Below, one piece after another: positions 3,400-27,935 of a stretch of DNA of 64,000 nucleotides; position 1 is the first letter of the stretch, and each line of letters opens with the position of its first letter. The translations under genes were made by a program, and so were the position numbers. The notes below the pieces were generated by a model that made no database searches, was not told where the DNA came from, and saw only the letters and a list, made by a program, of their open reading frames with translations. The stretch covers positions 1 to 64,000 of the forward strand of contig NZ_CP017243.1 of assembly GCF_001908375.1 (NCBI RefSeq), in the 5' to 3' direction. Source of the stretch: Rhizobium etli 8C-3. GTDB taxonomy: Bacteria; Pseudomonadota; Alphaproteobacteria; Rhizobiales; Rhizobiaceae.

Positions 3400-4317
3400 T
3401 CAACGGCGAATGAGGCCAAATCGGTGGGCTTCGTCCAGCAGGACCCGCACCGAGGACGGTTGCCAGTTCTTGCCGCTGCGCACAGGCCGTTCTCCCATCT
3501 GGTCCAGTTGCGCGGCAATGTCGCGCAGCGACAGGTTGGGATCGGCAATGGCAATTGCCGCCACCAGCTTCATCAGATAGTCTTCGGGAGCCCGGCGAGG
3601 GGATCGAGCAAGGAGTTCCTTCTCCGCGAGCTTTTCGCGTACCATGCGATGAACAGCGCGACGAAGGCGTTCGACGGTCCAGTCGTGGCCACGGCGATTG
3701 AGAACCCGCACGACATTGTCCCAACTGTGCTGCGGCCGGAGTTGACGCACCATCGGCAGCCACGTCTGCGCCGATGCAATGAGTTCATCGAGATAGAGCT
3801 TCTCCCGTGCCTGCGAGATTGCCTTGATCGCCTCCGGCCGTCGTTCTCGCAGACCGGGATTTCCAGGAAGCTTGCCGCGTGCCTTCGCCGCCTTAATGCC
3901 GGCTTTGGTACGCTCAGCGATTAGCGCCCGCTCGAGCTGCGCGACGGCGCCGAGGACCTGAAGGGAAAACATGCCCTGCGGGGTCGACGTATCGATTGGA
4001 TCGCGGATCGACCGGAAATGCACGCCGCGGGCCTCGAGGTCCTCGATCACCGACAAGAGATGACTGACGGATCGGGCCAGTCGATCGAGGCGCACGACAA
4101 TGAGGACGTCGCCGGCGCTAAGTTCAGCGAGTAATCGCGTCAGCACCGGTCGAGCCCGCGATGCTCCGGAACCATGCTCCTGATGGATCCGATCGCAGCC
4201 GGCTGCACGCAGCTCGTCCAACTGGGCATCGTGGACCTGTTCATCCGTCGACACCCGGGCATAACCGATCAGCCGCTTGGGAGATTGTTGGTTGTCAAAT
4301 GTTTGTGGCTTTGCCAT
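3400..4317 (-). CDS. Serine recombinase (resolvase/invertase family)
   Basis: The protein (305 aa from the ATG at 4317) has the N-terminal resolvase domain: GYARVSTDEQ with the nucleophilic Ser at about residue 23, then VVRLDRLARSVSHLLSVIEDL and GAVAQLERALIAERTKAGIKAA leading into the E helix. The extra ~130 C-terminal residues are longer than in classical Tn3 resolvases (about 185 aa) and contain a second helix-turn-helix-like or recombinase-type region. A longer frame opens at 4365, but the ATG at 4317 fits the family start better. It probably catalyses site-specific resolution or inversion for a transposon or the plasmid; no res site was identified beside it. Confidence 0.9.
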   Translation of the reverse strand: MAKPQTFDNQQSPKRLIGYARVSTDEQVHDAQLDELRAAGCDRIHQEHGSGASRARPVLTRLLAELSAGDVLIVVRLDRLARSVSHLLSVIEDLEARGVHFRSIRDPIDTSTPQGMFSLQVLGAVAQLERALIAERTKAGIKAAKARGKLPGNPGLRERRPEAIKAISQAREKLYLDELIASAQTWLPMVRQLRPQHSWDNVVRVLNRRGHDWTVERLRRAVHRMVREKLAEKELLARSPRRAPEDYLMKLVAAIAIADPNLSLRDIAAQLDQMGERPVRSGKNWQPSSVRVLLDEAHRFGLIRR

Positions 4318-4365
4318 CGCGCTTGTAACGGCCCTGTCTCGAAGTAGTTTGTACAGATAAGGCAT

Positions 4366-4843
4366 GCGTTAGAAATCGAACAGTTGCAAGCGTGTTTTAG
4401 GCATCAAATAGCGGCCCGCCAGACTCAAATCGCCGCCCGAGATAAGCAACGGAGCGTCCGCACTGACAAACCCGCGCCAGCGGGCTCCTGTGGCGGAAAG
4501 GCCGGAAAAACAACCGTTTTGGAGATGCCGCGAGAGCAGGGGCCCTCGGGAGGTCGCCGGCACATTATGCCGGAAGAAGGGTCGGGATTATGCGGGGCAA
4601 CTGCGGCGGCCGAATTCTGTCTCGGGGAGTCCGGTCATCCCAGACGAAATCGGCCGAAAAGCCTGGAAAACCGCGCATTTCCTGCGATCCATGGTGACCG
4701 ACACCCTAATTTGCGGCGTTATAGCAATCACTTCCGATAAGCGGTACTTATCGGTGGCGAGCCGCCACGGGCTCTTTTATAGCATGTGGGGAACCGCAGT
4801 GACCTTATAGCTTTCGTTTAAGACATCATTTACCATAATTTCA
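4366..4843. other. Intergenic region, nothing recognised
   Basis: About 480 bp between the recombinase start and the DUF1612 gene. Only short frames without recognisable content. It may hold divergent promoters and a recombinase target site, but no clear symmetric site was seen. Confidence 0.4.
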
Positions 4844-5980
4844 ATGGCTTACGATCTCTCGAAAATCAGCCTGAGTGTCTTAATGCGGCCGGCTTTCGAC
4901 GCTGTTGTCGCTCTGACGCGTCTGGACGAGCGCATTGAGCGCTCCGTGGTAGGATCAGGCTGGCTAGAACGCCAAAACTTTGCCGACGCCTGCGCCTCGC
5001 TGTGGATCGACGGAGAACTCGTCCATCTCGAAGACCTCGTCCTCCACGACGCCACCCGCGATATCCGCACCCCCACTCACGAACTGACCATCGCCCGCGA
5101 CGTGCTGCGCACTCGCCGACGCATTTGCGGCCAGGCGCCTGACTGGGCGCTATCCGCCGAAGGTTTGCGGACGCTGAGGCAGACATCGGAAACCACGTCG
5201 GCCGCCGCGGGCGAGGCGGAGACGGCCGGAGTCATCAGGCCCAAGGCCCCGATCGAGCCAGAAGGGGAGGGTGATGATGGTGATGACGTCAAAGATCTGC
5301 CGGGCGTCGACTATGCTGCAATCGATGCGCTGCTCGCGCGCTCGGACGCCGCAATCGAACGAGCCAAAAAGCCCGGTCGGACCCCGGCCAATAACCGCGA
5401 GCGAGACCCTCTCGTCTATGATCTCGACTGGGACGAAGATGCTCGGCTCGACGAATGGCGCGGCGCGCTGCGCCAGGCCGAAAACTTGCCGGCCGTGCTG
5501 CAGGCGATCGTCGCCCTCGATGCCTGGAATGAGTTGTCGGTGCTGCAGCACGCGCCCTGGCTTGGCCGGCTGTTTGCCGCCTCGATCCTGCGCCAGGCCG
5601 GCATCACTACCGGCGCCCATCTTGCCGCCGTCAATCTCGGGCTCAAAACGATACCCGTCGATCGGCGCCGCAGTCGCGATCGGAAGACTCGACTGCTCGC
5701 GATTGCCCAGGGGCTGATCGCGGCCGCGGAGATTGGCATGAAAGAACATGACCGGTTGACGCTGGCGCGAAAAATGATGGAGCGAAAGCTGGAGGGACGC
5801 CGAACCTCTTCAAAATTGCCAGAACTGGTCGAGCTGGTCATGGCAAAACCGCTGGTCTCTGCCGGGATGGTTGCGAAGACGCTCGACGTCACACCGCAGG
5901 CGGCGCGGCGGATTGTTTTGGAGCTTGGCCTCAGGGAGATGACCGGGAGGGGGAGGTTTCGGGCATGGGGAGTGCACTAA
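4844..5980 (+). CDS. RHE_PE00001-type protein (DUF1612 with C-terminal HTH)
   Basis: This 378-aa protein matches the rhizobial plasmid family named after RHE_PE00001: an N-terminal DUF1612 region, an acidic linker near residues 145-160 ([11 protein letters not shown]), a conserved block [24 protein letters not shown] and a C-terminal helix-turn-helix (about 320-365, containing [20 protein letters not shown]). The family is often found on Rhizobium plasmids near recombinases. The HTH suggests DNA binding, perhaps regulation or replicon maintenance; the precise role is unknown. The ATG at 4844 begins the usual [10 protein letters not shown] start. Confidence 0.85.
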
Positions 5981-6219
5981 GGTCTAAGGTCACCGGGCGA
6001 TTGTTGGCATTCCGTGCAGGGTCGTGGGCCGCTAGTGTAAGCGACTGAGGCAAAGGGACGATGAGCGTGCGTCTAACAAAGGCAGACGTCATTGAGTGTT
6101 TCGAAAAGTGCGATAGATAGTATCGGCTAGCAAGCAAGGCTATCCTAGACCACTATGAACGCAACGACAAGGATTGCTACAAGCGCTGCACAATTGATGA
6201 CCTGGTTGGGGCATCGAGC
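5981..6219 (+). other. Short intergenic region with a possible decayed frame
   Basis: From the ATG at 6061 a frame reads MSVRLTKADVIECFEKCDR, meets a TAG, and would continue in the same frame towards the convergent RES gene. It may be a remnant of a small gene, but I do not recognise the family. Confidence 0.25.
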
Positions 6220-6960
6220 TTAAGCCGCTATCACGTTCTCGCTACCCCGCAGATCGTCAGGTACATATTCTTTCCCGGAACCAAAGGAATAGATCCGACT
6301 GATAAGTTTTCCGTCCCAGACGAACTTGAAGTGGTTGCCCTGAACGGCCCGATCTAGGACCTCACCCCGAAGTACGCAGACACAAAAGCCGGCACCTCGC
6401 TCTGGCGGCCTATAGAGCAGGCCGTCGAAACCGGCATCCATGATATGCCGACCGCGCTTGTATCTCGTGTCAATATCAAGGTCCGGATCCCAATCGCGAC
6501 CATCAACGAAGCGGCCTTTCACGGTGCGCGACAATTCTCGCATCTCAAGTCCAATCGGTGCCTCGCTAGTGCGAGACAGGAACCTCTCTCGTTTCCAAAT
6601 GGAAACAGAAAGGGCTGTCTGAATGTCGCTAAATAGTTCTAGCACCGGATTTTCGGGGCCGAAAAACCGCGAGCCCTCCGGGTTGTGATATGTGAATGGG
6701 GCATGATTCCAGTTCTGAAGAAGTGGGGCGTTATCATCAACAATCGTAGCTCCACCTCGGAGAATGCGCTCTCGGTCTTTCAGGCGCGGATTGGTTAGGG
6801 ACTCAATCTCAGCCAGTTCCTTACTCCGACCATTCGCTACCCGCGCAAAAACATCAATCGTCGGAAATCGCGACGGAATGAGAGTAAAGAACGTTTGCTT
6901 GACGTCGATCACAGTGAAAGAGTTAGCCGCCACGCTGCGCGTCCACATATTGTCTGACAC
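6220..6960 (-). CDS. RES-domain toxin
   Basis: The 246-aa product fits the RES family of type II toxins, named for conserved Arg, Glu and Ser residues and known in studied members to deplete cellular NAD+. It is encoded directly after an Xre/MbcA/ParS-type antitoxin and overlaps it by 38 bp, the usual toxin-second order. The start is GTG at 6960 or the in-frame ATG at 6948. It is at the long end for RES proteins. Assignment to the family rests on the partner gene as much as on the sequence; catalytic residues were not individually confirmed. Confidence 0.7.
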   Translation of the reverse strand: MSDNMWTRSVAANSFTVIDVKQTFFTLIPSRFPTIDVFARVANGRSKELAEIESLTNPRLKDRERILRGGATIVDDNAPLLQNWNHAPFTYHNPEGSRFFGPENPVLELFSDIQTALSVSIWKRERFLSRTSEAPIGLEMRELSRTVKGRFVDGRDWDPDLDIDTRYKRGRHIMDAGFDGLLYRPPERGAGFCVCVLRGEVLDRAVQGNHFKFVWDGKLISRIYSFGSGKEYVPDDLRGSENVIAA

Positions 6961-7312
6961 GGAATATATCCATCACTTGGCCGCCGCGCATAACGTCGAG
7001 AGCACTCTGCCCGCGGAAAAACTGGTTAGGTCTTCGGATCCAAGTGTCAGCAGCTCTGCTGTCCGGGAGTAGAATCTCAAGGGCCTTATGGATCGCGAGT
7101 AGGTGAGAGACTCGCTCGACGGTGTCTCTTGGAATTGAGCCTCCTTCTTTCTTCCACTTAAAGAAGGTCGATCGGCCAGGCGATCCCAGCAGGAGAAGTT
7201 GGTCTTCGGTTGAAAGCTCCCACAACTCCGCAAGTCCTTGAAATGCCTCCATGACTGCCGGAATCGATGATCGCCCTTCGGCCGCTGCGGCGACGGGTTC
7301 GATATTAGCCAC
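6923..7312 (-). CDS. Xre/MbcA/ParS-type antitoxin
   Basis: 129 aa from a GTG start at 7312. An N-terminal HTH-like region (LWELSTEDQLLLLGSPGRST, about residues 30-50) is followed by FFKWKKEGGSIPRDTVERVSHLLAIHKALEILLPD and the C-terminal toxin-binding segment (about 90-129) with WIRRPNQFFRGQSALDVMRG, closely matching the ParS/DUF2384 motif in which the antitoxin inserts into the RES active site. Overlap with the toxin gene implies translational coupling. The repeated palindrome just upstream (7330-7390) is the expected autoregulatory operator. Confidence 0.88.
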   Translation of the reverse strand: MANIEPVAAAAEGRSSIPAVMEAFQGLAELWELSTEDQLLLLGSPGRSTFFKWKKEGGSIPRDTVERVSHLLAIHKALEILLPDSRAADTWIRRPNQFFRGQSALDVMRGGQVMDIFRVRQYVDAQRGG

Positions 7313-7329
7313 GCATGAATCTCCCGAAA

Positions 7330-7390
7330 AGTCCCAATATGGACTTGTATTTCAAATAAGTCCCGATATAGATTAGTCCATATCGGGACT
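7330..7390. promoter_or_regulatory. Operator array of the RES-Xre module
   Basis: Two copies of AGTCC-N6-GGACT (7330-7345 and 7375-7390) surround a third half-site. The half-sites 7359-7369 and 7380-7390 form a perfect 11-bp inverted repeat (AGTCCCGATAT / ATATCGGGACT). The array lies 18-78 bp upstream of the antitoxin start and upstream of the divergent ubiquitin-like operon, so it could control both directions. The binding protein is inferred to be the Xre antitoxin. Confidence 0.7.
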
Positions 7391-7453
7391 AGAATCGCAG
7401 TGTAGTCCACTGACGAATCACGATCAAGAGTCGCCGGAGAACGGAGCGCAGTT

Positions 7454-8113
7454 ATGGTAAAAGACAACAAGAAATTCGAGTTCACTGTCGATGGCGCGAT
7501 TTATAGCATCGGCGATAAAGTCATGGACGGCAGTCAGATTCGGGAGACCGCGGGCAAAGTGCCTGCGAGCGAGTTTGTCCTCATACAGATCGTTGAGAAA
7601 TCCGGGCGCTCGATTGGCCTTGAGGATGAGGTGAAGTTCGCCCCGGGTGAAACTGCGGTATTCCGGACTTTCGAAAGCGATCGGGTTTACAACTTCACTG
7701 TTGACGAACGCGGTTGGGAGTGGGGCGAGGGAGCAATCGCTGCCGCCGATCTCTATCGTTACGCGGACATTGATGAGGACCGCGAACTGGTCCTCGATAG
7801 TGATGGTGACACAATCATCCCGGTCGATGGCAAAATCGATTTGAGCGGTAAGGGCGTCGAGCGCGTCCGTAGCCGCGAACCCAAAACCGTGACAATTAAA
7901 GTCAACGGGCGGCCGCGGACCGTTGAGAAGCGTCGCCATAGCTATCGCGAAATCGCCGCGATTGCTTACCCGAATCCCGACTTCGAAAACTTCAACTACA
8001 CCACGACCTACCTTCATGGGGTCGGTGGTGCAGAGGGTGATCTCGTTGAGGGTGAATCTATCATGGTCAAGAATGGGATGGTGTTCAATGTCCGTCGATC
8101 TGATAAGTCGTGA
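7454..8113 (+). CDS. Triple ubiquitin-like protein (multiubiquitin family)
   Basis: The 219-aa protein appears to hold three beta-grasp (ubiquitin-like) repeats: about 6-75 (KFEFTVDGAIYSIGDKVMDG..), 78-140 (YNFTVDERGWEWGEGAIAAA..) and 143-215 (KTVTIKVNGRPRTVEKRRHS..). Each begins with a short beta hairpin and a turn before a helix, as in the bacterial multiubiquitin domain. The C terminus is FNVRRSDKS, without a terminal di-glycine. It overlaps the E1-like gene by 26 bp and heads a three-gene operon. The likely role is a substrate or modifier for E1-type adenylation; whether it is conjugated to anything is unknown. Confidence 0.85.
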   Translation: MVKDNKKFEFTVDGAIYSIGDKVMDGSQIRETAGKVPASEFVLIQIVEKSGRSIGLEDEVKFAPGETAVFRTFESDRVYNFTVDERGWEWGEGAIAAADLYRYADIDEDRELVLDSDGDTIIPVDGKIDLSGKGVERVRSREPKTVTIKVNGRPRTVEKRRHSYREIAAIAYPNPDFENFNYTTTYLHGVGGAEGDLVEGESIMVKNGMVFNVRRSDKS

Positions 8114-9278
8114 CCCGTTTCTGAAGCAACTCGAAGACGAAGGCTTCGAGCTTGAGGTGAGCAACGGTCATTTGATTGTCCGTAGCATTCCTTATGTGAC
8201 GGTCGATGGCTCCTTGGCCCGCGGCGTCCTCACCTGTGCCCTTTCGCTTGAAGCGTCCTCTGGGTTGACCTCGACGCCGCAGGGCGATCACACCATGTAT
8301 TTCGCAGGTGGGATGCCATGTCATCGCGATGGAAAGCCGATGAACAATATCGTCAACGGTGCCGTTCAGCAGCGCTTCGCTGATATTGATGTTAGCTATT
8401 ATTTGTCGTCGAAGCCGGAGATCACTCATCGCTACGAGACTATCTACGACAAGGTAGTAGCTTACGAGGGATTGATCGGCGGTGCCGCGAGATCTTTGGA
8501 CCGAACGGCTAACGCCAGGACGCATGCCCGCGGGTTGATCTCAAATGACGACAGTCCATTCGCAATTCCTGACTCTGCCTCGGCCCGATACCGTATAGGC
8601 GCGGTAAACCGAAAGCTTATGGGACGGGTCGCCATCATAGGCCTTGGCGGGACCGGGTCCTACCTGCTCGACCTTCTTGCCAAGACATGGGTCACGGAGA
8701 TCCACCTGTATGACGGGGATCAGCTTCTTAATCACAATTTGTTCCGGTCGCCTGGCTCGCCTGAAAGGGAATTGCTCAAGGAGTTCCCTTTCAAGGTGAA
8801 CTACTACACGCAGGTTTACGCGCGTATTCACAAGGGCATCGTTTCCCACCCGGTCCGCGTTACATATGGCAATGTTGACGAGCTCTCGGGCTTCGACTTC
8901 GTCTTTGTCTGCATCGATAAGGGCTCGTCGCGGCGCGAAATCGCTGAGGGACTGGTCCGGTTGGCGATCCCGTTTATCGACACCGGGATCGGCGTTGGCC
9001 TGGAGGATGGCAGGCTGGACGGATGCGCGAGGGCGACGTTCATCCGCCCAGGCACCGACTGGAGCGAGGTCGAGAGGCTGCTTCCCTTCGGCGATGACGT
9101 AGAAGATGACGATGTCTACCGAACGGATATCCAGATCGCGGCCATCAACTCGCTAAACGCAATCATGGCCATCATGCGCTGGCAGCGGTGGGCGGACTAT
9201 TTTCGTGATGAGCGTAATGAGATGAATTCGGTTTACATGATCGAGGGGAACAATATCTCGAACAGGGCTGCGATATGA
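8088..9278 (+). CDS. E1-like adenylyltransferase with N-terminal DUF6791-type domain
   Basis: Starting at the ATG at 8088 (396 aa; longer frames would lie inside the upstream gene). The C-terminal ThiF/E1 Rossmann domain (about 165-390) has the nucleotide loop GLGGTGS (185-191), the acidic YDGD (208-211), NHNLFR with the conserved Asn/Arg (215-220) and FVCIDKGSSRR (273-283). Candidate thioester cysteines in this domain are C275 and C313. The N-terminal ~160 residues resemble DUF6791, a domain usually fused to such E1 proteins and possibly E2-related, with C78 in a GGMPCHRDG turn. It should activate the C terminus of the upstream ubiquitin-like protein. It overlaps both neighbours. Confidence 0.85.
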   Translation: MSVDLISRDPFLKQLEDEGFELEVSNGHLIVRSIPYVTVDGSLARGVLTCALSLEASSGLTSTPQGDHTMYFAGGMPCHRDGKPMNNIVNGAVQQRFADIDVSYYLSSKPEITHRYETIYDKVVAYEGLIGGAARSLDRTANARTHARGLISNDDSPFAIPDSASARYRIGAVNRKLMGRVAIIGLGGTGSYLLDLLAKTWVTEIHLYDGDQLLNHNLFRSPGSPERELLKEFPFKVNYYTQVYARIHKGIVSHPVRVTYGNVDELSGFDFVFVCIDKGSSRREIAEGLVRLAIPFIDTGIGVGLEDGRLDGCARATFIRPGTDWSEVERLLPFGDDVEDDDVYRTDIQIAAINSLNAIMAIMRWQRWADYFRDERNEMNSVYMIEGNNISNRAAI

Positions 9279-9700
9279 CGCGGATTAAAAGGCTGAGAAC
9301 AGTCTTCACAGCGGAGATACCTGAAACTCTCGACGACGGGGTTTTGTATGTTTCGCGGGAGTGTCGCGTCGCACTCCACAATTGCGCGTGCGGGTGCGGT
9401 GAGGAAGTATCGACGCCTCTGGTCGCGACCGAATACAAGTTAACTATGCACGGCGACAACGCATCGCTCTGGCCATCGATCGGCAATCACGACTTTGCCT
9501 GTGCTTCGCACTACGTCATCGATCAAGGGATGATAGTTTGGGCCAACAAGATGTCACGGGCTGCAATCGAGGCCGGCCGAGAGAAGGATCGGCTTCTTAA
9601 GCGACCGCCCGCGCCTTCCCCTATTGCAGAAACGATGGGACCAACAGCCGGAGGTCTATTTGGCTGGTTCAAGTCCATCTTCCGAAAGTTCTTCAACTGA
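9275..9700 (+). CDS. DUF6527 family protein (Cys/His-rich)
   Basis: 141 aa, start overlapping the E1 stop (ATGA). It matches the DUF6527 family that accompanies multiubiquitin and E1 genes. Visible conserved-looking residues are C37, C39 and C41 in HNCACGCGEE, and C76 and H79 in FACASHYVI, compatible with a metal site or a catalytic cysteine. The C-terminal tail (about 125-141, GGLFGWFKSIFRKFFN) is amphipathic and basic and could bind membranes. Its biochemical role is not known to me. As the third member of a tightly coupled operon it may serve as conjugation partner, protease or effector; these are inferences. Confidence 0.8.
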   Translation: MTRIKRLRTVFTAEIPETLDDGVLYVSRECRVALHNCACGCGEEVSTPLVATEYKLTMHGDNASLWPSIGNHDFACASHYVIDQGMIVWANKMSRAAIEAGREKDRLLKRPPAPSPIAETMGPTAGGLFGWFKSIFRKFFN

Positions 9701-9708
9701 CAGGCGGC

Positions 9709-9736
9709 GGACGCAGGCGAACAAAGACCTGCGTCC
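9709..9736 (+). terminator. Stem-loop after the ubiquitin-like operon
   Basis: GGACGCAGG (9709-9717) pairs perfectly with CCTGCGTCC (9728-9736) around a 10-nt loop, 9 bp after the DUF6527 stop. It is followed by a modestly T-rich stretch rather than a strong T run, so termination may be partial. Confidence 0.55.
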
Positions 9737-9884
9737 TTCTGACATTTAGTGGCTTGCGGTGACGGGAAGGCGGAAAGTTCTCGCTCGGGCTACCCAATCG
9801 GTCCACCGTCGGGCTCCAGTGATAATGACTCGCGTCGAGAGCCGGCATAGTGCAATCTGGGGTAGGGGGAATCAGGGGTAGGAC

Positions 9885-12572
9885 ATGCATCTCATCTTCG
9901 GCTTGGCAGCAGATGGTCGAGTTTATCCCGACGCGCACGACGCATCCGGAAGTTTGGATGAGGATGTCGTTGGACCCTTGGGTCTGGTTCAGACGCTTGA
10001 AACCCAGCTAGGAATGCTTGCACCGAGCGTTTCGAAGGCGGTGCGCATTTCGACTTATCTCGCAAAGCTCCGTGCTTGCGGTGGCGATCGTTTCTGGGCC
10101 TCGTCATTTTCGAGGGATCCCTGGTCTACGGCCGCCACCCTCCTTGAGTGGCGCGATACGCTGGTGGGCGGTGGCTGGCACGGTACCGCGACCGGTAGCA
10201 ATCGCCTAGACGATCTCGCTGCCGCAGAGGCAGTCGAGCCAACATTGCCGGCGGGCTTGGAAGATCGCGCCATAGCTTTGCTCGACGTCCTTAAGACAAG
10301 GCCTGGCCTAAGAATTCACCAACTCGGTTTGGCAGACCGGCGGGATCTTTTGCCGCCACTGTGGGCACGCATTGTTAAGGCTCTCGAATCCGTCGGGGTC
10401 ACGATCTTCCAACACGAGCAGCCCGACCTGGCGGCAGAGGGCTCTGACCTGCGCATAGTGCAGAGGGTTCTATCAGGGGAGCCCGTCCAGCCACTGGCAG
10501 GCGACGGCACTCTTACAATGGTGGAAGCCGATACGGAGCTCATGGCTGCTGAAACGATCGCCGACTGGTTAGCAGCCTTGCCGTCGGAGGACCTGCGCGG
10601 AAGCGTCATTCTCGCTTCCGACGGCGATACGGCGCTCCTGGACCATGCTTTGCGGGCGAGGGGCATTCCAGCCCTCGGGCTCTCCGCCTCATCACCCTGG
10701 CGTGGAGCACTGCAGGTTCTTCCTCTGGCTTTCGCCGCCGCGTGGCAGCCGTTCGATCCCCGCGCGCTATTAAACCTCTTTCTCCTTCCCAGGCCACCTG
10801 TTGCGGCCTGGGCCGCGCGTCGGCTCGCACGCGCGCTCAGCGAAGAGCCGGGGGTCGGTGGCCGCGTCTGGCGCGAAGCATGGGTCCAAATCGAGGATCG
10901 CCTGCTCGAAATCAATACGCGATCCGACGCGGATACAGCGCGCCGTAAAACCGACACGACGCTTGCGGAATGGCGCGCATGGACGGAGGTCGGGCGCTTT
11001 GCGAGAGGCGAGGGGATGCCACTGTCGGAGGCGTTGGCGATCTGCGGGAGAGTGGCCGCTTGGGCGATGCGTTCGGACGGTGGCGATGGCGACCGCTTGC
11101 TGATGGCAGTTTCGAATGCTGCGGCTGCTGTGTCTGACGCCCTGAGCCGCCTGGAGCTTTCGGTCATTCCCGCCCTCCTTCTCGAGCGGGTTGTCTTGCA
11201 AGTCCTGTCGGAGGGCGTTCCCAATCCGGACCATTTTGCGGAAGCTGGTGCTGTTCGTGCCATCAAGGCGCCAGGAGCATTGTGGTCCTCGGCCCTGCGT
11301 GTCATCTGGTGGAACTTTGTCGGTCCTGGCGAAAAGATTGCCATCACACCATGGGACAATGCCGAGCGTGAAGCGCTCATTGCCAATGGAGTGGAGATCG
11401 ATGCTTCACCAGCGATTGCGCGTCGGATCGAGGCCGCCCATAGCAGTGTCATCCGGCGTTGCCACGGAAACCTCATTCTCGTGCGCCCAGCGCTTGCGCG
11501 CGACGCGCAGACGACCCTTCATCCAATGGCGCATCGTTTGCGGCCTCTGCTGAAAGAAAGCGGGGCGGCGATCACCTTCAAGGCGGAACGGCTGCTGCGT
11601 GAACCCGATGCCATGCTCGCCGGCAGGATACTTCCTCGCCAGCTTGTTGGACGGCAAGTGCAGCCGCCAGCAGGGGTTCCAGTCTGGACAATACCGCCGG
11701 GAACGACACGCCTTACCGACACCCGTCGTGAGAGCGCGACTTCGCTGACACGGATGTTGAACTGTCAATTGAGCTGGTTCGCCCAGGATATTCTCAATCT
11801 TCGGCCGGGTCGTTTTGCAGAAATCCCAGGCACCGACCAGCTCTTCGGAAATCTCGCCCACGAGATCGCCCGCCGGCTGCTCCTTCCGGGCGCACCACCG
11901 GCCGAAGCCGGTATCAGGACGGAAGCAATCAGGCATTTCGAAAGCCTGCTTCCCGAGATCGCAGCTCCGCTCCTCCAGCCCGAACATGCCGGAGAACTCG
12001 CGGCCGCTCGCGAAATGGTGCCACGTGCCTTGGAGGCGCTTGTTCGCCTGCTCCATGCTCAAGGTCTGGAGATCGTCGGGTCGGAGCTCGATCGGGAAGG
12101 TATCCAGGGGCAGCTCCTGCTTCAGGGCAGACTCGACCTCCTGGTTCGTCGCGGCGACCGGATCGCAGTTCTGGACCTCAAATGGACCCGCTCCGAACGG
12201 CGATATAGGGAGGAAGTCGCGTCCGGGCGTGCCATCCAGCTAGCCATCTATCGCGGGCTTTCGGCCAGCGACGGGACGGGTGCTCCGGGAGGCTATTTTC
12301 TGCTGCGCCAGCGACGCATAGTAGCGGGTCCGGGCTCCATTCTGACCGGCAATCCTATTGAAGCGGATATAGATGACCTCGCTACGCTTGGCCATGTGAA
12401 AAACGATTGGCGTCTCTGGCACGATCTCACCACGAAGGGGACTCTGATTGCGGCCGGCTTCCCCGATACAGGTGATCTGCGACCTGCTGGGCTTGCGATT
12501 GATGCAGCGAAAGAACCCTGCCGCTTCTGCAATTTGCGCGGCCTCTGTCGCGTCTACGAGGAGCTTGTTTGA
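9885..12572 (+). CDS. AddB-like nuclease with Fe-S cluster motif
   Basis: 895 aa. The N-terminal two thirds resemble the inactivated helicase half of AddB-type proteins. The C terminus is a PD-(D/E)XK nuclease of the RecB/AddB type: H659 in GNLAHEIARR, D751 in GRLD, D764-L-K766, and Q785 in the IQLAIYRG motif. C627 together with C879, C882 and C888 gives the split four-cysteine arrangement that binds 4Fe-4S in AddB. It is directly followed, with a 1-bp overlap, by an AddA-like helicase-nuclease. The housekeeping addAB pair is expected on the chromosome, so this diverged pair beside restriction genes more likely processes invading DNA; that is inference. Confidence 0.82.
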   Translation: MHLIFGLAADGRVYPDAHDASGSLDEDVVGPLGLVQTLETQLGMLAPSVSKAVRISTYLAKLRACGGDRFWASSFSRDPWSTAATLLEWRDTLVGGGWHGTATGSNRLDDLAAAEAVEPTLPAGLEDRAIALLDVLKTRPGLRIHQLGLADRRDLLPPLWARIVKALESVGVTIFQHEQPDLAAEGSDLRIVQRVLSGEPVQPLAGDGTLTMVEADTELMAAETIADWLAALPSEDLRGSVILASDGDTALLDHALRARGIPALGLSASSPWRGALQVLPLAFAAAWQPFDPRALLNLFLLPRPPVAAWAARRLARALSEEPGVGGRVWREAWVQIEDRLLEINTRSDADTARRKTDTTLAEWRAWTEVGRFARGEGMPLSEALAICGRVAAWAMRSDGGDGDRLLMAVSNAAAAVSDALSRLELSVIPALLLERVVLQVLSEGVPNPDHFAEAGAVRAIKAPGALWSSALRVIWWNFVGPGEKIAITPWDNAEREALIANGVEIDASPAIARRIEAAHSSVIRRCHGNLILVRPALARDAQTTLHPMAHRLRPLLKESGAAITFKAERLLREPDAMLAGRILPRQLVGRQVQPPAGVPVWTIPPGTTRLTDTRRESATSLTRMLNCQLSWFAQDILNLRPGRFAEIPGTDQLFGNLAHEIARRLLLPGAPPAEAGIRTEAIRHFESLLPEIAAPLLQPEHAGELAAAREMVPRALEALVRLLHAQGLEIVGSELDREGIQGQLLLQGRLDLLVRRGDRIAVLDLKWTRSERRYREEVASGRAIQLAIYRGLSASDGTGAPGGYFLLRQRRIVAGPGSILTGNPIEADIDDLATLGHVKNDWRLWHDLTTKGTLIAAGFPDTGDLRPAGLAIDAAKEPCRFCNLRGLCRVYEELV

Positions 12573-15500
12573 TGTCGCGACTGACGACCATTACCGCCGC
12601 CGCTGGCGCCGGAAAGACGACGAGGATCGTCAATGACATCGCCGACGAGGTTCTGGTGCGTACGCCCGAACAGATCCTTGCGACGACGTTCACCATCAAG
12701 GCGGCGGATGAACTTGTCGAACGCGCCCGTGCCAAACTATTTGAGCAAGGCAAGGCGGACGCAGCTGCCCAGTTGCTCGGTGCGCGCTTCGGCACTGTCA
12801 ACGCCGTTTGCAGCCAAATCGTCAGCGAATTTGTCATCGACCTGGGGCGCTCGCCGTCGACCGCTGTCATCGGTGAATCCAACATGTCGCTGGTGTTCAG
12901 CGTGGCCGCGGACGGTGCAATCGCCGCACGTGCCGAGGTCCTGAACGAACTCGCGGACCACTTCGGCTACAATGATCCTCGTGCGCCGGGGACGGGAGAA
13001 CCGCCTGACTGGCGCCGGACTGTGCGCAGTATCGCGACCCTCGCGCGGGCAAATGGAATTGAGGCTGACCAGTTAGCCTCGTCGGCGCAGCGATCAATTG
13101 AGGCCTTTCTGGCATGCTTTCCACCTCCCGCGGCAGACGCCGCGGACCTCGACGCAGCACTGGCCAACGCGTTGAAGGATGCCTTCGAAATGCGCCCGGC
13201 CATCGTGAGCAGCACGGGAGCGGATTCGGTCGAGACGATCAGGGCGGCGCATGAACGCATTTTACGCGGCGAAACGCTCAGTTGGTCGACTTGGGCGCGT
13301 TTGACCAAGGTGAAATGCGCGCCCACCAAGGACGGACAGCCTTATAATCAGGCGTTGATCCATCTTATCGCCGCGGCGGGGCGGCACAGCGAGCATCCGC
13401 GGCTCCGGTTCGAATGCGAGCAGTTCATCACGGAGACGTTTCATTGCGCCGCCGAGGCGTTGACCGCTTACCAGGATTGGAAGGCCGAGCGTGGGCTATT
13501 GGATTTTACGGATCAGGAAGCTCTCGCGCTAGAGATCCTCAAAACACCTCACCTGGCCGCAAGGCTCAAGGAACGTGTCAGCCGTGTCTTCGTCGATGAG
13601 TTCCAGGATTCGAGTCCCTTGCAGCTTGCCGTGTTCACACTTCTTGGGGAGCTGGTCGACGAGAGCACCTGGGTTGGTGATCCGAAGCAGGCCATCTACG
13701 GCTTTCGCGGCGCCGACACCGAGCTGACCCAGGCTGCGTTTCTCGGCGCTGGGGGGAAGCCCGAGGACAATCCGGTCCTGTCCAAATCATGGCGAAGCCG
13801 CAAAAGCCTGGTCGATCTCTTCAATGCCATGTTTACGCCGGTCTTCGAACGGATGGGACTGCCGGCGGCGAAGCACGCGTTTTCGGATGCGGCGCGATCC
13901 GACGCTGGCTTTGACAAGCCTTCAGCAGGATGGTGGTGGCTGATGGGCAAAGTCGACGAGCAGGCACAAGCCCTCGCGGAGGGAATCCGGCAATGTCTGG
14001 CCGAAGCCGACAACTGGCTTGTCGAAGACGACAAGCACGATCACAGGCCAATCACGCCAGGTGACATCGCCATTCTCTGCCGTTCCAATACCGATGTCGG
14101 ACGTTTTGCCCTCGCCCTTAGCCGTGCTGGACTTCCGGTGGCAGTTGAACGATCGGGACTTGCGCGTACACCCCATGTGGAATTCGTGCTCGCCGCTTGT
14201 CGGCGCGTGGCTGACGCGACGGATCGCCTTGCCCTCGCGGAGCTCGCCCGCTTCTTCGCTGATGATGCCGGTTCCAATGCATGGCTGCAGGCTGCTACCT
14301 CTGATGATGCCGACGCAGCGCTCCGGGCAGCCGTGCCGATATCGGATGCGCTTGATAGGCTCGCAGGTCAATTGCTCAATTTCACGCCGGCCGAACTGGT
14401 CGACGCCGTACTCGCGTTGCCAGCACTGTTGAGCCATATCGAGAGCTGGGGCGATACCGCGATGCGCTTCGACGACCTCGAGGCGTTGCGCGGTTTCTCA
14501 CGCGCCTATGAGGAAGAGTGCGCTGCATCCGGCTCGCCTGCGACCCTGCAGGGGCTGCTGCTTGCGCTCGACGGAGCGGAGCCGAAGCGCCCCCCAAGCC
14601 TTGCCAGTGATGCGATCCAGGTCATGACCTATCACGGATCGAAAGGCCTTGAATGGCCAATGACGATCTTGACCGGACTTGCCTGGGAATCGAAGGCGCG
14701 GCTGTTCGAGCCGGTCGCCGAGACGACCGGCGAGCTTGATTGGCGCAACCCTCTGGCGGAGCGGTGGATTCGCTTCTGGCCGTGGCCGTATGGTCAGAGT
14801 GGAAAAGGCGGCACGATCGATGTTGAGGTAGCGAACTCAGAGACGGGGCGGCGTGCTTTGCAACGCGCTGTCGAGGAAGACACCAGGCTTCTCTATGTTG
14901 GCGCCACGCGAGCCCGCGACTATCTGATCTTTGCTCCGCCGGCGAAAGGCCCGCTCAATTGGCTGAGCCTGCTCAATGCGCCGGAGGCCGCAGCGCATGT
15001 CGTTCCTCCCCAGAACGACGATAACCAGCTTGGGGTTGGGAACCAGAATTTCACAGTCAATGTGAAGGCGCTTGCGACGAGTGGCGAATTGACGGAGCGT
15101 GGCAGGCTGCCCACCTACGTGCGAGCGCGAACGACCGAGCCGCAGGTCCGTCCGCCCTTGTTTCTGAAACCAAGCGAGGCGGTAGGTGGAAGCTGGAAGG
15201 TCGTCGAAAGGGTTGACCTTGGCGGAAGGCTCCCGATACACGGGATCGCCGACATTGCAGCGCTAGGCGAAGCGCTCCATTCCATCATCGGCTATGATGA
15301 TCCAGACCGCGACCGAAGTCAGCGCCTTGCCGACGCGTCGTCTATCCTGACGCGTTGGAACGTGATTGGCTTCAAAGCAGATGATGCGCTTATCGCCAGT
15401 GACCGACTAGCAACCTGGCGCCGCGGCCGATGGCCGGTGACCAGGTGCATTGCTGAAGTGCCCGTCACGTCACCCGCAGCCGATCAGCTTCTCAAGGGCC

Positions 15501-15730
15501 GTATTGATATGCTGGTCGAAACCGGGATTGATTTCGCTATTATCGACCACAAGAGCTTTCCCGGCCGTTTCGAGCTTTGGGAAGAACGAGCCGTTGGCCA
15601 CGCGCCGCAACTTGCTGCCTATGCAGGTGCGGTGGAATCAATCACCGGACGGCGTTGCTCTGAACTCTGGATCCATATGCCCGTAGTTGGCACAATGTTC
15701 CGATTGGCTCCAGTGACGCGCGATCCCTGA
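12572..15730 (+). CDS. AddA/UvrD-like helicase-nuclease
   Basis: 1052 aa from the ATG at 12572, which shares its first base with the stop of the upstream gene (TGATG); a TTG one codon earlier is less likely. SF1 helicase motifs are visible: Walker A AAAGAGKTTR (about 9-18), FTIKAADELVERA, DEFQD (about 342-346), GDPKQAIYGFRGAD, VMTYHGSKGLEW and LLYVGATRARD. The C terminus adds a PD-(D/E)XK nuclease with D979 in GRIDML, D992-H-K994 and QLAAYAGAV. This is the AddA layout. With the AddB-like partner it should form a dual-nuclease, DNA-unwinding complex. Confidence 0.88.
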   Translation: MSRLTTITAAAGAGKTTRIVNDIADEVLVRTPEQILATTFTIKAADELVERARAKLFEQGKADAAAQLLGARFGTVNAVCSQIVSEFVIDLGRSPSTAVIGESNMSLVFSVAADGAIAARAEVLNELADHFGYNDPRAPGTGEPPDWRRTVRSIATLARANGIEADQLASSAQRSIEAFLACFPPPAADAADLDAALANALKDAFEMRPAIVSSTGADSVETIRAAHERILRGETLSWSTWARLTKVKCAPTKDGQPYNQALIHLIAAAGRHSEHPRLRFECEQFITETFHCAAEALTAYQDWKAERGLLDFTDQEALALEILKTPHLAARLKERVSRVFVDEFQDSSPLQLAVFTLLGELVDESTWVGDPKQAIYGFRGADTELTQAAFLGAGGKPEDNPVLSKSWRSRKSLVDLFNAMFTPVFERMGLPAAKHAFSDAARSDAGFDKPSAGWWWLMGKVDEQAQALAEGIRQCLAEADNWLVEDDKHDHRPITPGDIAILCRSNTDVGRFALALSRAGLPVAVERSGLARTPHVEFVLAACRRVADATDRLALAELARFFADDAGSNAWLQAATSDDADAALRAAVPISDALDRLAGQLLNFTPAELVDAVLALPALLSHIESWGDTAMRFDDLEALRGFSRAYEEECAASGSPATLQGLLLALDGAEPKRPPSLASDAIQVMTYHGSKGLEWPMTILTGLAWESKARLFEPVAETTGELDWRNPLAERWIRFWPWPYGQSGKGGTIDVEVANSETGRRALQRAVEEDTRLLYVGATRARDYLIFAPPAKGPLNWLSLLNAPEAAAHVVPPQNDDNQLGVGNQNFTVNVKALATSGELTERGRLPTYVRARTTEPQVRPPLFLKPSEAVGGSWKVVERVDLGGRLPIHGIADIAALGEALHSIIGYDDPDRDRSQRLADASSILTRWNVIGFKADDALIASDRLATWRRGRWPVTRCIAEVPVTSPAADQLLKGRIDMLVETGIDFAIIDHKSFPGRFELWEERAVGHAPQLAAYAGAVESITGRRCSELWIHMPVVGTMFRLAPVTRDP

Positions 15731-16431: not shown

Positions 16432-18252
16432 ATGAACAAACAGATCGATCCGCAAGACCGAAACATTAAATCTCTTTTCCAAGACTTTTACCGCGTTCCC
16501 GATTATCAGCGGGAGTACGTTTGGGGTGAGACGGACCCTCGCGGTGAGGGTGGCGAAGAGGTCGAACAATTTCTGAGCGACATCTACAGCGAGTACCAGA
16601 ATGCCAGTAAGAACGACGCGCCTGAGTATTTCATCGGGACCGTTGTTGTTTGTCGCGAGGCCGGCGATGTTTTCGACCTCATCGACGGTCAGCAGCGAAC
16701 TACAACCGCCTATCTCACATTATGCGCGCTCCGCGATAAGCTGGTCGCTTTAAAGGCAGATGTTCCAGAGGAACTTCCCGGACAGATAATTTACAGCTCC
16801 ACCAACTGGCAGGGCGAGACAACGCAAAGTCTAAGGCTCGACCTTCAATACGAAGATGCGGGCGACGTCCTAAGAAGGTATGCGGAAGGTGCAGGCACCG
16901 ACGCCCCCAGCGATGGAACGAGGTCAATCCGAAATCTCTACAATGCATATCTGACAATCAAGGAATTTATTGAGACCACGCTTAAAAACGATCCAGCCGA
17001 AGTACGCCGTTTCTACGGCTACTTCACCAACAAGGTGAAGATCATCCGGATCGAAACTCCGACCGTAGCCGTGGCGTTGAAAATATTTGAGACGATCAAT
17101 GATCGTGGCGTCGGCCTCGACGCCATGGACTTGCTCAAGAACCTCCTTTTCATGAACGCAAAAGGTGAGGAGTTTAGCAAGCTGAAAGCTGTGTGGAAAC
17201 AGCTCACCGATGCTATCTATCAGGCGAACGAAAAGCCGCTACGGTTCTTGAGGTACTATCTGCTTGCGGCGCATGACGTAGACGGAAGGCTTCGTGAAGA
17301 CGCGATCTACGATTGGTTTCGGAAGAACGCGGAGCAAACCAATCACGAAAAAAAACCGCTCGCTTTTGCCGGAAAGCTGCTTGACGCTGCCAAGGCGTAT
17401 GCTCACTTCGCGAAGGGACAGAACGTCGCTGGCGAAGAAGAGGCAGGAATCATCAACACCCGTCTGCTCGGAGGAAAGTCCATAAAGCAGCACTTTATTC
17501 TCCTGCTTGCTGGTCGCTCCCTGTCCCCTGCGAATTTCAGCAAACTTGCCGACGATCTGGAGAAAACCATGTTCGTTTGGCTACTGACCGGCACGTCAGG
17601 TAAAGAGTATGAGAGACGTATTATCGAAGCTGCGCATCAGCTCAACAAAATCTCTGATGCGCAGCTTGAACTGTTTTTGGAGAAAACCTTGCGTGCCGAG
17701 CGTCAAACGCTGGCCCTTGAATTCCGGAGGACGTTGCTTGGTTTGAAGACCTGGCAGCTCCGCGGCTTCCGTCTCCGCTATCTACTGGCAAAGCTCACGC
17801 AGTATATCGACCTGCAGGCATACGGCTCGAGTGCATCGCGCGACCGCCTGTCCGACTACACGGCCGGCGGCAACGACATTGAGCACATCTTGGCATCGAA
17901 TGCTTCTTTCGAGGCTATGGAAGAGTTTGGCGAGGGTGCCGCCGATATTCATATTCGCCAGTGTCTCGGCAACCTGTTACTCATCGAGAAAGCGATCAAC
18001 AGGGCGCTTCAGAACGGCCGGTATTCCGGAAAAATCGTAGCGTATGAGCAGTCGAAATTTCTGCTAACGAAGTGTCAGGCGGATGCTGCAGCGCACGAGG
18101 TGGGCAAGGACGACAGGATTACGGCAACCGTGCGCAAGCTTGAAAGCTGGCAAACTTGGAATGCGGTAGCTGTCACAGAGCGTCAGGAGTTTCTGAGTAA
18201 ACTGGCGGAGGTCGTCTGGGATATCCCAATGCCTTCAGCATCAAGCAACTGA
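16432..18252 (+). CDS. DUF262/DUF1524 protein (GmrSD-type restriction)
   Basis: 606 aa. The N-terminal DUF262 domain (ParB/Srx-like NTPase) shows VPDYQREYVW (22-31) and DLIDGQQRTTT (about 82-92). The C-terminal DUF1524 domain is of the His-Me finger type: NDIEHILAS around H485 and CLGNLLLIEKAINRALQNGRY. This fused arrangement matches the GmrSD type IV enzymes, some of which cut phage DNA carrying modified bases. It starts 86 bp after the previous gene and probably belongs to the same operon. Target and nucleotide are not predictable from sequence. Confidence 0.85.
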   Translation: MNKQIDPQDRNIKSLFQDFYRVPDYQREYVWGETDPRGEGGEEVEQFLSDIYSEYQNASKNDAPEYFIGTVVVCREAGDVFDLIDGQQRTTTAYLTLCALRDKLVALKADVPEELPGQIIYSSTNWQGETTQSLRLDLQYEDAGDVLRRYAEGAGTDAPSDGTRSIRNLYNAYLTIKEFIETTLKNDPAEVRRFYGYFTNKVKIIRIETPTVAVALKIFETINDRGVGLDAMDLLKNLLFMNAKGEEFSKLKAVWKQLTDAIYQANEKPLRFLRYYLLAAHDVDGRLREDAIYDWFRKNAEQTNHEKKPLAFAGKLLDAAKAYAHFAKGQNVAGEEEAGIINTRLLGGKSIKQHFILLLAGRSLSPANFSKLADDLEKTMFVWLLTGTSGKEYERRIIEAAHQLNKISDAQLELFLEKTLRAERQTLALEFRRTLLGLKTWQLRGFRLRYLLAKLTQYIDLQAYGSSASRDRLSDYTAGGNDIEHILASNASFEAMEEFGEGAADIHIRQCLGNLLLIEKAINRALQNGRYSGKIVAYEQSKFLLTKCQADAAAHEVGKDDRITATVRKLESWQTWNAVAVTERQEFLSKLAEVVWDIPMPSASSN

Positions 18253-18743
18253 CAAGGAGTACCAGCGGCTGCACGAAGGGTTATGCGCGGACTACCTGAC
18301 ACGACTAAGGTGCTGAGCCAGCGCAGGTAACCACATGCGATAAAGCGCTTCGAGCCCCACCTGCAGTGCGGGCCGGCCCGTCAAAAACGTCCGGGTTGAA
18401 TATCGCTCCGTGGGACTCTGTATGGAAATCGTTAGGGCTGCTTGATTACAGGCCGCATCTCTATCGAGATCTGCAGATCTCGACCGTCACGCCAAGACCG
18501 GTTGGTCCGTCTCCGGGCCCAAAGGGTGCCTGGTCTCCAATTCCAAGATCAGCCGTTCGTTTCAGTAATCTCTGTCTGTTTCTATAGGTTCATTACGCCC
18601 GTATGCTTCCGTCAGTGAATGGCAGTTTGTTCAGCCAGATGGAACCCTTGAGGTCCCGCCTAGTCATTGGTCTCCATTGCGCACTCATTCGAGTCACCCA
18701 GCGTGGATGTTGGTTTGATTCCTCGTCCCGAAATAGCGCCTGC
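18253..18743. other. Convergent intergenic region, nothing recognised
   Basis: About 490 bp between the convergent GmrSD-like gene and the DUF6883 gene. No clear frame, RNA gene or strong terminator was seen. Confidence 0.4.
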
Positions 18744-19124
18744 TTAGGCTAAATCGATTGGATGCGCGGTAATCAAAATAGGTGGTAGGCCGTCTCCGTG
18801 ATCATTCCAAACCGTCCTAATGCAATAACTGCGGCCATTCGGCATCCCGACAAAGCAGTCAACGACTAGCTTCATTCCGAAGGCATGTTTCTCTACTGAA
18901 GCGACAGGATTGCAAGCAGCGTGCTCTCGCATCGTTTCCTTAAATGACTCAATGTCTTCACGTTTGTGGCCAACGCCTTCAAAAAATTTGGCCTTCGCTG
19001 CTCCTATTGAATGGTTGTTGTTGAGAAGGTAGTCAGCGACCTTATTGTCGGCAATGCGAAGGTCTTGGGGGTTCTCAATCCACGATTGCTCGCCCAATGG
19101 CTGCCAAGGCGGGGTGTCATGCAT
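18744..19124 (-). CDS. DUF6883 family protein
   Basis: 126 aa from the ATG at 19124, which overlaps the stop of the upstream res gene by 8 bp. It fits DUF6883: DNKVADYLLNNNHSIGAAKAKFFEGVGH near the N terminus and a C-terminal strand pair with RTVWNDHGDGLPPILITAHP. In other genomes DUF6883 genes commonly lie next to small DUF4926 genes. Here the partner-like DUF4926 domain appears to be fused to the end of Res (see that entry). The two-domain pairing resembles a toxin-antitoxin or immunity arrangement, but no function is established to my knowledge. Confidence 0.75.
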   Translation of the reverse strand: MHDTPPWQPLGEQSWIENPQDLRIADNKVADYLLNNNHSIGAAKAKFFEGVGHKREDIESFKETMREHAACNPVASVEKHAFGMKLVVDCFVGMPNGRSYCIRTVWNDHGDGLPPILITAHPIDLA

Positions 19125-22083: not shown

Positions 22084-22087
22084 GGGC

Positions 22088-25000: not shown

Positions 25001-25225
25001 GTCTTTATCATCGTCCGGTTCATCCGTGACACGGAAGATCGACCCGCCACGTCCCTGGCCACTCCCCAGCACGCCCTCATCGATCAGCGCATCGCGCGCG
25101 GCGATGTAGTCGTCTTCGGCAAGGTCCGGCATGTGCTCGCGCAGCAGCGCAAGCATCGCCCCGTTGCCAATGGTGGAGCCATCTTCGGGTGTCAGGGACA
25201 GGATTAGATTGGAAATATCGGACAT
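22088..25225 (-). CDS. Type III-like DNA methyltransferase Mod
   Basis: 1045 aa. An N-terminal winged-helix-like region (about 1-65) is followed by a very acidic linker (about 70-90, rich in Asp/Glu). The catalytic motif DPPY lies at 306-309 (IYIDPPYGIKYGSNF), and the AdoMet motif LDITCGSGTTAF comes later, the order of beta-class N6-adenine (or N4-cytosine) methyltransferases. The middle carries a large target-recognition region. The C-terminal third (about 850-1045) is beyond a minimal Mod. It protects self DNA and supplies sequence recognition for Res. The recognition site cannot be read from sequence. Confidence 0.9.
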   Translation of the reverse strand: MSDISNLILSLTPEDGSTIGNGAMLALLREHMPDLAEDDYIAARDALIDEGVLGSGQGRGGSIFRVTDEPDDDKDDLDEDESDEDDQFELIHTEEAASRQRRAKAGKKVARRADGLVEVLSYRHGETRVNNPEVGMVHAGTDPDGDKTVWAYDPHLDPVLNFDSARAGIEKLIDDALASEDPERMEDALRELKRLQAPYLNWTGKAERLSFEVDTVSLHVHERVDPATILANAAKRLKGKDAPTQWRQPDLFAAPFENLPLRQALDFYHHEKGWSNRLVAGDSLLVMNSLLAKESMRGKVQMIYIDPPYGIKYGSNFQPFTNKRKLSDSDKDEDLNQEPEMIKAFRDTWELGIHSYLTYLRDRLILARELLNDSGAVFVQISDENVHLVRGVLDEIFGVTNFVSQISFSKTGSVTGSHLGKVCDILLFYAKNKDRLKYRTLYEKKPDMDGDYSEDPLKSDGFRSTTTCPYNFMGKSWPCGANEHWKVPIEGLDRAAKAGRIVPKTTSLRLKKFATDFEYKVFHSVWLGFGGASNMQYVVETNTRIVERCILMTTDPGDLVLDITCGSGTTAFTAEKWGRRWITCDTSRIAITLAKQRLMTASFDYYILKYPHEGLKGGFDHETAKRISLGSIGSNTDIDKIFDEDHPKIAAALADLISALAATPPKPLKPSQGVRKGEPVDFAKGDTLHEWEVPLDWPDAWPDTARAPFESFHKARQAMLRRMDQSISDHAEQETLYDKPRIDKSKLRICGPFSVEAVPAPTVLSLDDSLPPQEADETVARSGETSRQALWRDELLKTGVRGKGGAMLRFAEFETLPGLKHIHASGLLAETGERVVVSFGPEHAALEQRQVELALTEAETLRPSPKFILFCAFTFDPEAAKDIAEVNWPGVTLLKAQMNTDLLTEDLKKGRSSNQSFWLMGQPDVDLRKRKDGLWEVQVNGFDYFDPRKGDLVSGGTKQIAMWSLDVDYDNRSLMPHQVFFPIADAKGGWNRLRKTVRAELDEDLLEQFHGTVSLPFEAGENRRIAVKIVDDRGIESLKIMSLEG

Positions 25226-27161: not shown

Positions 27162-27935
27162 TCAAAGCAGACTACCCTGTTCCACCGGCTCTCCGGATTT
27201 CGACACGATCGTAGATCCGTATGGTTCGCGTGAAGAAATGATGAGCGCATCATTCTGTAGTGGTCGAGCGAGGTGCTTTGCCTCGTCCCAAGGCGCCCGC
27301 ATCCAGATGTCGGTTTCTTCCTTTGTCAGCAACAGTACCGGCATGGCCTTCTCGTGGATGGGCTTGACGAGATCGTTGGGATCCGTGGTGAGAAACCCAT
27401 AGAGGTCGTCAGTGGTCAGGCCGTCCCTGACCTTCCGCACGCTTTTCCACTGCGGCACATGAATGCCCGCAAAGAACATCAGCGATTTCGCCTCATCGCG
27501 GGCAAACCAGGTATTGGGTACCTTGCCGCCGGTTTCCTGGCTTGCCGGATCCGGTTCGGCAAAGCTTGTGACCGGGACCAGGCATCGATGCTCGATGCCA
27601 AACCATCGTGTCCAGTGGGGAAGGTTAAGCTTGCGGACATTGGTCACGCCCCGGTCCGGTTCCATGCGGATGAGCTCGTCCATTTCGACTGCCTGACCCT
27701 TGGCTCTCAGTTTCTCCGCCCGAGCTTCCGCAGCCTTCTTTTGCACGAAAATCGGCGATGGCAGGCCCCAGCGCGCATGCACGAGCTGCTTTCTTCCGTC
27801 AGCCGTGTTGCGGACGACCGGCCCCATCTGGTCGGGGTTCATCTGATAGGCCGGCATCAGATTGATCAGGCTTTCGGCATCCTGGGCCCACTTCGCGACC
27901 CAGTCCTTGTCTTCCATCCGGTAGAGATTGCACAT
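27162..27935 (-). CDS. SOS-response-associated peptidase (SRAP, YedK/HMCES type)
   Basis: 257 aa beginning MCNLYRM, so Cys2 becomes the N-terminal residue after Met removal, as required for the covalent link to abasic DNA. Other family residues are visible: N33 (YQMNP), E127 (VTSFAEP) and H194 ([12 protein letters not shown]). Known family members cap abasic sites in single-stranded DNA. It lies in the same block as a DNA ligase and the imuAB-dnaE2 operon, in line with a damage-tolerance role. No LexA box was seen directly upstream. Confidence 0.92.

Follow-up and report, generated by a model that had tools for sequence, protein, structure and literature searches.

What kind of system is formed by a bacterial ubiquitin-like protein (Ubl) that ends in serine, an E1-like enzyme from a family with no invariant cysteine and a DUF6527 protein? 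Ubiquitin-like tagging is taught as glycine and cysteine chemistry. The question is raised by a three-gene locus of Rhizobium etli 8C-3 (7.3 Mb genome, G000), located in the window analysed here, which comprises positions 1–64,000 of contig NZ_CP017243.1. The trio is a genuine, conserved operon of an already described kind. Its new features are the Ser-ended Ubl, a fixed dual-coded junction, a DUF6791 domain modelled as E2-like and the lack of an invariant Cys. We think it reasonably probable that the trio works as a self-contained ubiquitin-like conjugation module, related to operon class 6e of Iyer and coworkers and to Bub, with a Ser-ended Ubl, transfer by an oxygen nucleophile and DUF6527 as adaptor. 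The features of the locus are as follows.

7454..8113, plus strand: triple ubiquitin-like protein (Ubl) of 219 aa; Pfam Multi_ubiq PF14452 (E 6.1e-32) over three stretches
8088..9278, plus strand: E1-like enzyme of 396 aa, with N-terminal DUF6791 and ThiF adenylyltransferase; NCBIfam NF004804 (E 2.5e-147)
9275..9700, plus strand: DUF6527 protein of 141 aa; Pfam PF20137 (E 4.4e-21)
8088..8113, plus strand: 26-nt dual-coded overlap of the Ubl C-terminus and the E1 N-terminus, +1 register
8108..8113, plus strand: last Ser codon (TCG) and stop (TGA) of the Ubl, inside residues 7–9 of the E1 frame
8121..8573, plus strand: DUF6791 domain (residues 12–162), E2-like fold in the model; C78 at 8319–8321, invariant S107 at 8406–8408
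8640..8660, plus strand: E1 ATP loop GLGGTGS, residues 185–191
9117..9119, plus strand: codon of invariant Tyr344 (Tyr in 84 of 84 sequences), aligned with BubCD Y370

The positions of the open reading frames bear out the coordinates and the overlaps of 26 nt (Ubl/E1) and 4 nt (E1/DUF6527) given in a first-pass annotation of this DNA. Pfam likewise recovered the three Ubl repeats, the E1 with a DUF6791-type domain (PF20590, E 4.5e-37, next to ThiF PF00899, E 1.8e-12) and the DUF6527 third gene that it had described, and the motifs it had named, GLGGTGS and the acidic YDGD, were located in the E1, the latter at residues 208–211. Its statement that the set has no separate E2 or JAB stands in one part: neither JAB (PF14464) nor Prok-E2_E (PF14462) matches any of the three proteins, but the DUF6791 domain of the E1 itself models as E2-like. 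JAB has no match in the whole R. etli genome either, with a model that matches 8 of 14 control genomes. Prok-E2_E also gave no match there, under a weak control in which no control genome was matched; in a separate scan the PF14462 model matched 3 of 385 genomes, 2 of them above the cut-off.

The first-pass annotation had named conservation of the trio as a check, and the trio proved to be a conserved set. Named genomes were scanned for relatives with the E1 alignment and two peptide patterns taken from E1; of at least 570 found, the best 80 were retained (E1 identity 37–100%), so this sample is biased to near relatives. The Ubl gene is directly upstream of E1 in 79 of the 80, the contig of the other (L040) being cut at that point, and DUF6527 is downstream in all 80, after about 1.3 and 2.0 kb in L064 and L076. 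In L006 (7176–7539) DUF6527 is split over two frames, which means either a damaged gene or an error of sequencing. Record titles place the relatives in Proteobacteria, Actinobacteria, Cyanobacteria, Bacteroidetes, Chloroflexi, Acidobacteria, Verrucomicrobia, Planctomycetes, Nitrospira, Patescibacteria and two archaea; the archaeal cases (L063 and L083, uncultured or metagenome-assembled records) may be misplaced contigs. The occurrence is sporadic: DUF6791 is present in 7 of the 199 genomes scanned from the family and in 8 of the 398 from the phylum, the R. etli genome counted in both. E1 relatives occur on 115 of 72,556 plasmid records, the weakest of these matching in the ThiF part only; none of 50,697 phage records has one. 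A second copy of the trio is present on another contig of the same genome (L004, 4952–6825), with a single Ubl ending in TGQS, its own E1 (34% identical to that of the window), DUF6527 and the same 26-nt overlap. It adjoins a large open reading frame (6812–10189) that looks helicase-nuclease-like by eye.

The junction between the Ubl and E1 genes was compared in 81 loci (79 relatives, the window and the second copy; 72 clusters at 90% E1 identity), to which six loci from a phylum draw (L101–L106) and ten hand-chosen divergent plasmid copies were added to give 97. In 80 of the 81, the E1 start codon (ATG in 78, GTG in 2) gives an overlap of exactly 26 nt; L019 has a TTG start one codon further on and a 23-nt overlap. 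The overlap is 26 nt in all six phylum-draw loci and in six plasmid copies, and 41 nt in the other four (L110 and L112–L114), where the E1 start has moved. In total, 92 of the 97 loci have the 26-nt overlap and all 97 have the +1 frame relation. The codon at −26 relative to the Ubl end falls on the same E1 profile position in 96, being off by two residues in L115. Across 44 cluster representatives the average pairwise DNA identity is highest within the overlap, at 0.70 versus 0.63 just before and 0.58 just after it. The E1/DUF6527 junction is variable: a 4-nt overlap is the commonest arrangement (35 of 81), the others range from −115 to +22 nt with exceptions at +195 (L006) and +1964 (L076), and L064 and L070 are unassigned; start codons were picked automatically here and the extremes are rough.

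One relation of +1 in every locus might indicate programmed frameshifting, which would produce a Ubl-E2-E1 fusion in addition to the separate proteins, as an out-of-frame counterpart of BubAB; in-frame Ubl-E2 fusions do exist in some JAB-type operons. We hold this to be very improbable. The E1 gene has a start codon of its own, which lies at −26 and is ATG or GTG in 80 of 81 loci and is a TTG one codon on in L019. In 76 of 81 loci at least 4 of 5 bases of a Shine-Dalgarno-like sequence are matched (no shuffled control was run), and no classical slippery motif was noticed, although no dedicated search was run.

The last Ubl residue at this junction is serine. The window Ubl ends in NVRRSDKS, and Ser is the last encoded residue of the Ubl in all 97 loci (81/81, 6/6 and 10/10); none encodes at its end the C-terminal Gly of classical mature modifiers. 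Strictness is limited to the Ser: the penultimate residue is K, R, Q or L in the 81 loci and E in four plasmid copies. Nine residues from the end there is a Phe in 79 of 81 loci and a Leu in the other 2. A DKS end is present in 116 of 120 listed Ubl proteins (126 were found), and the other four (P0326, P0334, P0343 and P0347) end differently and look like fusions or fragments. Residues 10–219 match the solved structure 9cd2, titled "multi-ubiquitin domain protein" (E 1.9e-21), which likewise ends in TDKS. A count that gave one Ubl domain in 80 of 81 loci was not used, its profile having been built from the last domain only.

The fixed overlap and the terminal Ser could also be by-products of E1 N-terminal coding and inheritance, unrelated to Ubl function. 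The genes are inherited together and the loci are not independent (the 81 form 44 clusters at 60% E1 identity), and M1, S2, L5 and I6 of E1 are themselves well conserved. In the 81 loci, E1 residue 8 is R in 52, H in 14, L in 13, P in 1 and A in 1, against Ubl Ser codons TCG, TCA, TCT, TCC and AGC in the same numbers, and E1 residue 9 is S in 55, N in 14 and D in 12, against stops TAG, TAA and TGA. These counts are equal because the same bases are read in a fixed register; the informative point is that the E1 side changes while the Ubl side remains Ser. L069 keeps the Ser through AGC although its E1 residues 6–8 differ, and the four divergent copies with a moved E1 start retain both register and Ser. 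If only the E1 protein and its own codon usage were kept, Ser would be expected at the Ubl end in about 22 of 81 loci, under a null that ignores shared ancestry. With Ser in 81 of 81, E1 coding alone was rejected as the source of the terminal Ser, and we regard the wider by-product explanation as improbable.

Known systems place the trio more precisely. In the available text of Iyer, Burroughs and Aravind 2006 (PMC1779556), operon class 6e (polyUbl) includes a variant in which an unassigned domain replaces JAB. This variant resembles the trio in having one to three tandem Ubls, an E1 with a non-JAB N-terminal domain and a metal-binding protein, which in the trio is a predicted one; mlr6139 is the prototype. 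The window E1 is 67% identical to Mlr6140, and from this match we infer that DUF6791 is their distinct N-terminal domain. The section on 6e, as available, makes no mention of the fixed overlap or the terminal Ser, and nothing on Ser ends or on the roles of DUF6791 and DUF6527 was found in the literature within reach of our searches. In the Bub operon of Citrobacter (BubAB-BubCD-DUF6527, L085), JAB is fused to E1 and Prok-E2_E to the Ubl, whereas the window trio has no JAB, a putative E2-like domain fused to E1 and a free Ubl ending in Ser; a DUF6527 gene after E1 is common to both. The window Ubl is also related by sequence to the solved BilA 8u38 (E 3.6e-5). Bil (BilABCD) has its own E2 and JAB genes according to the available text of PMC11354881, but the R. 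etli genome matched no JAB and no Prok-E2_E, the latter under the weak control mentioned and with other E2 families not searched genome-wide. CBASS Cap2 and 6A-MBL share with the window E1 an E2-like domain N-terminal to E1 in a single protein, but the E1 similarity is weak (NF058523, E 8e-6). No CD-NTase or metallo-beta-lactamase was found among the scanned flanking proteins, five of which (4844–15730) were scanned by Pfam.

The E1-like protein was modelled by AlphaFold2 with a predicted local distance difference test score of 91.2. A set of 84 E1 sequences, taken from the loci and the listed proteins, has no invariant Cys: C78 is kept in 77 and replaced by H in 5 and S in 2, and C275 is kept in 64. 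All 84 share H68, S107, Y126, Y344 and the ATP-site residues. Y344 aligns with Y370 of BubCD and with a Tyr in 11 of 11 JAB-type E1s; this alignment replaced a rougher pairwise one that had paired it with Y362. Titles in the PDB include a Y370F BubCD with BubB and BubA, which suggests that the depositors held that residue important. By pattern search, 10 of 11 Prok-E2_E proteins have a Ser in W-S-R-H or a close variant, and 5 of the 11 lack Cys altogether; S107 of DUF6791 may correspond to this Ser. In the DUF6791 model, a second look restricted to the Foldseek candidates showed rows of E2/UEV type, BubB-like, and no JAB row, and the domain is predicted to have an E2 fold.

Several results weigh against this assignment and against the chemistry proposed below. 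Foldseek of DUF6791 gave no match at E ≤ 0.001 (best 0.29) and the comparison of hidden Markov models between DUF6791 and 11 Prok-E2_E sequences gave 2%, so homology of DUF6791 and BubB is not established. With C78 present in 77 of 84 sequences, a Cys may still have a role in the majority of the family. Among the JAB-type operons, the actinobacterial L098 (1815–2114) and L099 (1444–2088) bear JAB and have Ubls ending in DDNS, so a Ser end alone does not imply JAB absence; conversely, L094 and L095 have JAB though their Ubl genes already end at Gly.

DUF6791 might instead substitute for JAB, as a peptidase for trimming or removal of the Ubl. Such a replacement of JAB function was a speculation of Iyer and coworkers for their N-terminal domain, in the available text (PMC1779556). 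The domain occupies the place that JAB has in BubCD, and it has the invariant polar residues H68, S107 and Y126. We consider this role distinctly unlikely, because the Foldseek rows were of E2/UEV type and the last Ubl residue is already invariant. A JAB-like DUF6791 was rejected, with no JAMM motif seen and no JAB row among those candidates, which is no proof of absence.

The E1 could, on the other hand, adenylate the Ubl without any protein conjugation, in a carrier or small-molecule pathway like the ThiS/MoaD sulfur carriers or MccB. ThiF, MoeB and MccB are among its nearest E1 folds, and no invariant Cys is available for thioester transfer. MccB acts on a non-Gly C-terminus, using the terminal Asn of its substrate, and PDB titles name MccB with MccA and with succinimide. 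But the closest match of the E1 is BubCD, from a Ubl-E2-JAB operon, and the DUF6791 model is E2-like, so we rate this pathway as unlikely, although a partner from sulfur or nucleotide metabolism may be encoded among the neighbouring gene families, which were grouped by clustering.

The third protein has a predicted metal site, C37-x3-C41-x34-C76-x2-H79, formed by invariant columns of 70 sequences; the metal-binding motif of Iyer and coworkers reads C-x3-C-x35-38-H-x2-C. Searches of solved structures with DUF6527 gave at best E 1.3 for the window protein and 0.011 (MbnC) for that of Citrobacter.

For the conjugation module that we favour, the following course is proposed. The ThiF domain would adenylate the carboxylate of the C-terminal Ser, and the activated Ubl would pass to the E2-like domain, either in the polypeptide that activated it or in a dimer partner, through an oxygen and not a cysteine nucleophile. 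Candidates for this nucleophile are Y344, located in the crossover region of E1, and S107 of the E2-like domain. From there the Ubl would move to a target, with DUF6527 as a putative metal-bound adaptor for the target or the E2. JAB maturation would be unneeded, because the stop codon would end the Ubl at the right residue. The Ubl of the JAB-bearing Citrobacter Bub, in contrast, is in frame with E2 and presumably must be cut free. The overlap would couple the synthesis of Ubl and enzyme. A bolder version, argued by analogy and in our view rather doubtful, is a Cys-free pathway in which the E2-E1 fusion activates the invariant Ser, the Ser is itself chemically involved (for example as an internal ester) and maturation by stop codon is locked into the E1 gene instead of being left to a protease.

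The 11 JAB-type operons give the comparison for this proposal; L085 was scanned by Pfam and the rest were assigned by alignment to L085 and record annotation. The Ubl runs on in frame from Gly into E2 in L085, L091, L092, L093 and L100, it ends at Gly in L094 and L095, has a near-end Gly in L096 (TTEGGAA) and ends in HGNH in L097. The record annotation lists no DUF6527 for L092, L093, L098 and L099. In L097, a Bradyrhizobium operon, a gene annotated as phosphotransferase (3744–5348) lies between E1 and DUF6527.

Upstream, the trio is divergent to a toxin-antitoxin pair.

6220..6960, minus strand: RES-domain toxin of the RES-Xre pair; Pfam RES (E 1.4e-10)
6923..7312, minus strand: Xre/MbcA/ParS-type antitoxin; Pfam Xre_MbcA_ParS_C (E 8e-12)
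7329..7393: operator-like inverted repeats AGTCCCGATAT/ATATCGGGACT in the antitoxin-Ubl intergenic region, partly conserved in six related loci

The RES-Xre pair is found upstream of the trio in the window and six near loci (seven in all), plus the divergent L110, and inverted repeats between it and the Ubl gene are conserved in the near loci. The region 7329–7393, with three AGTCC-type repeats in addition to the inverted ones, is likely an operator, and the Xre antitoxin probably regulates the divergent trio and sets its expression. In many relatives a helix-turn-helix (HTH) regulator and an ImmA-like peptidase hold this place: upstream HExxH families, of ImmA type by eye and some with an HTH gene, were found in 30, 9 and 5 of the 81 loci, mostly on the opposite strand (28 of 30, 8 of 9 and 5 of 5), and several plasmid records annotate an ImmA/IrrE peptidase beside an HTH regulator. 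The available text of PMC4963859 reports 70% of PF14452 proteins beside such loci. A promoter and terminator scan gave 1 and 3 sites, compared with 1.6 and 2.1 in shuffles.

Downstream of the trio the surroundings are restriction-rich, as the first-pass annotation had noted. An AddB-like PD-(D/E)XK nuclease and an AddA/UvrD-like helicase directly adjoin it (9885–15730), and a helicase of the same cluster is near the trio in L005, L017, L028, L069 and L072. A GmrSD restriction gene and a type III restriction-modification pair follow at 16432–25225. Farther on are a SRAP-domain gene (27162–27935) and a DNA polymerase III alpha-type gene (31476–34805), which we take to be ImuC/DnaE2-like. The earlier interpretation as a whole is partly supported. 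For the putative defence role the analysis gave genomic context. Of the Bil and Bub types, cited there as known antiphage systems, the available text of PMC13373217 lists Bil as a known anti-phage pathway, but describes phage protection by Bub as not demonstrated.

If the proposal is true, a Ser-ended tag, an enzyme family with no invariant Cys and a built-in E2-like domain would widen the range of E1 substrates. The E2-like reading of the model would give a working role to DUF6791, a family that Pfam lists without a function. Through the out-of-frame junction, whose register is the same in different phyla, the last residue and stop of the Ubl are linked to the E1 N-terminus. The trio is a small, testable system of three proteins, found in bacteria of many phyla.
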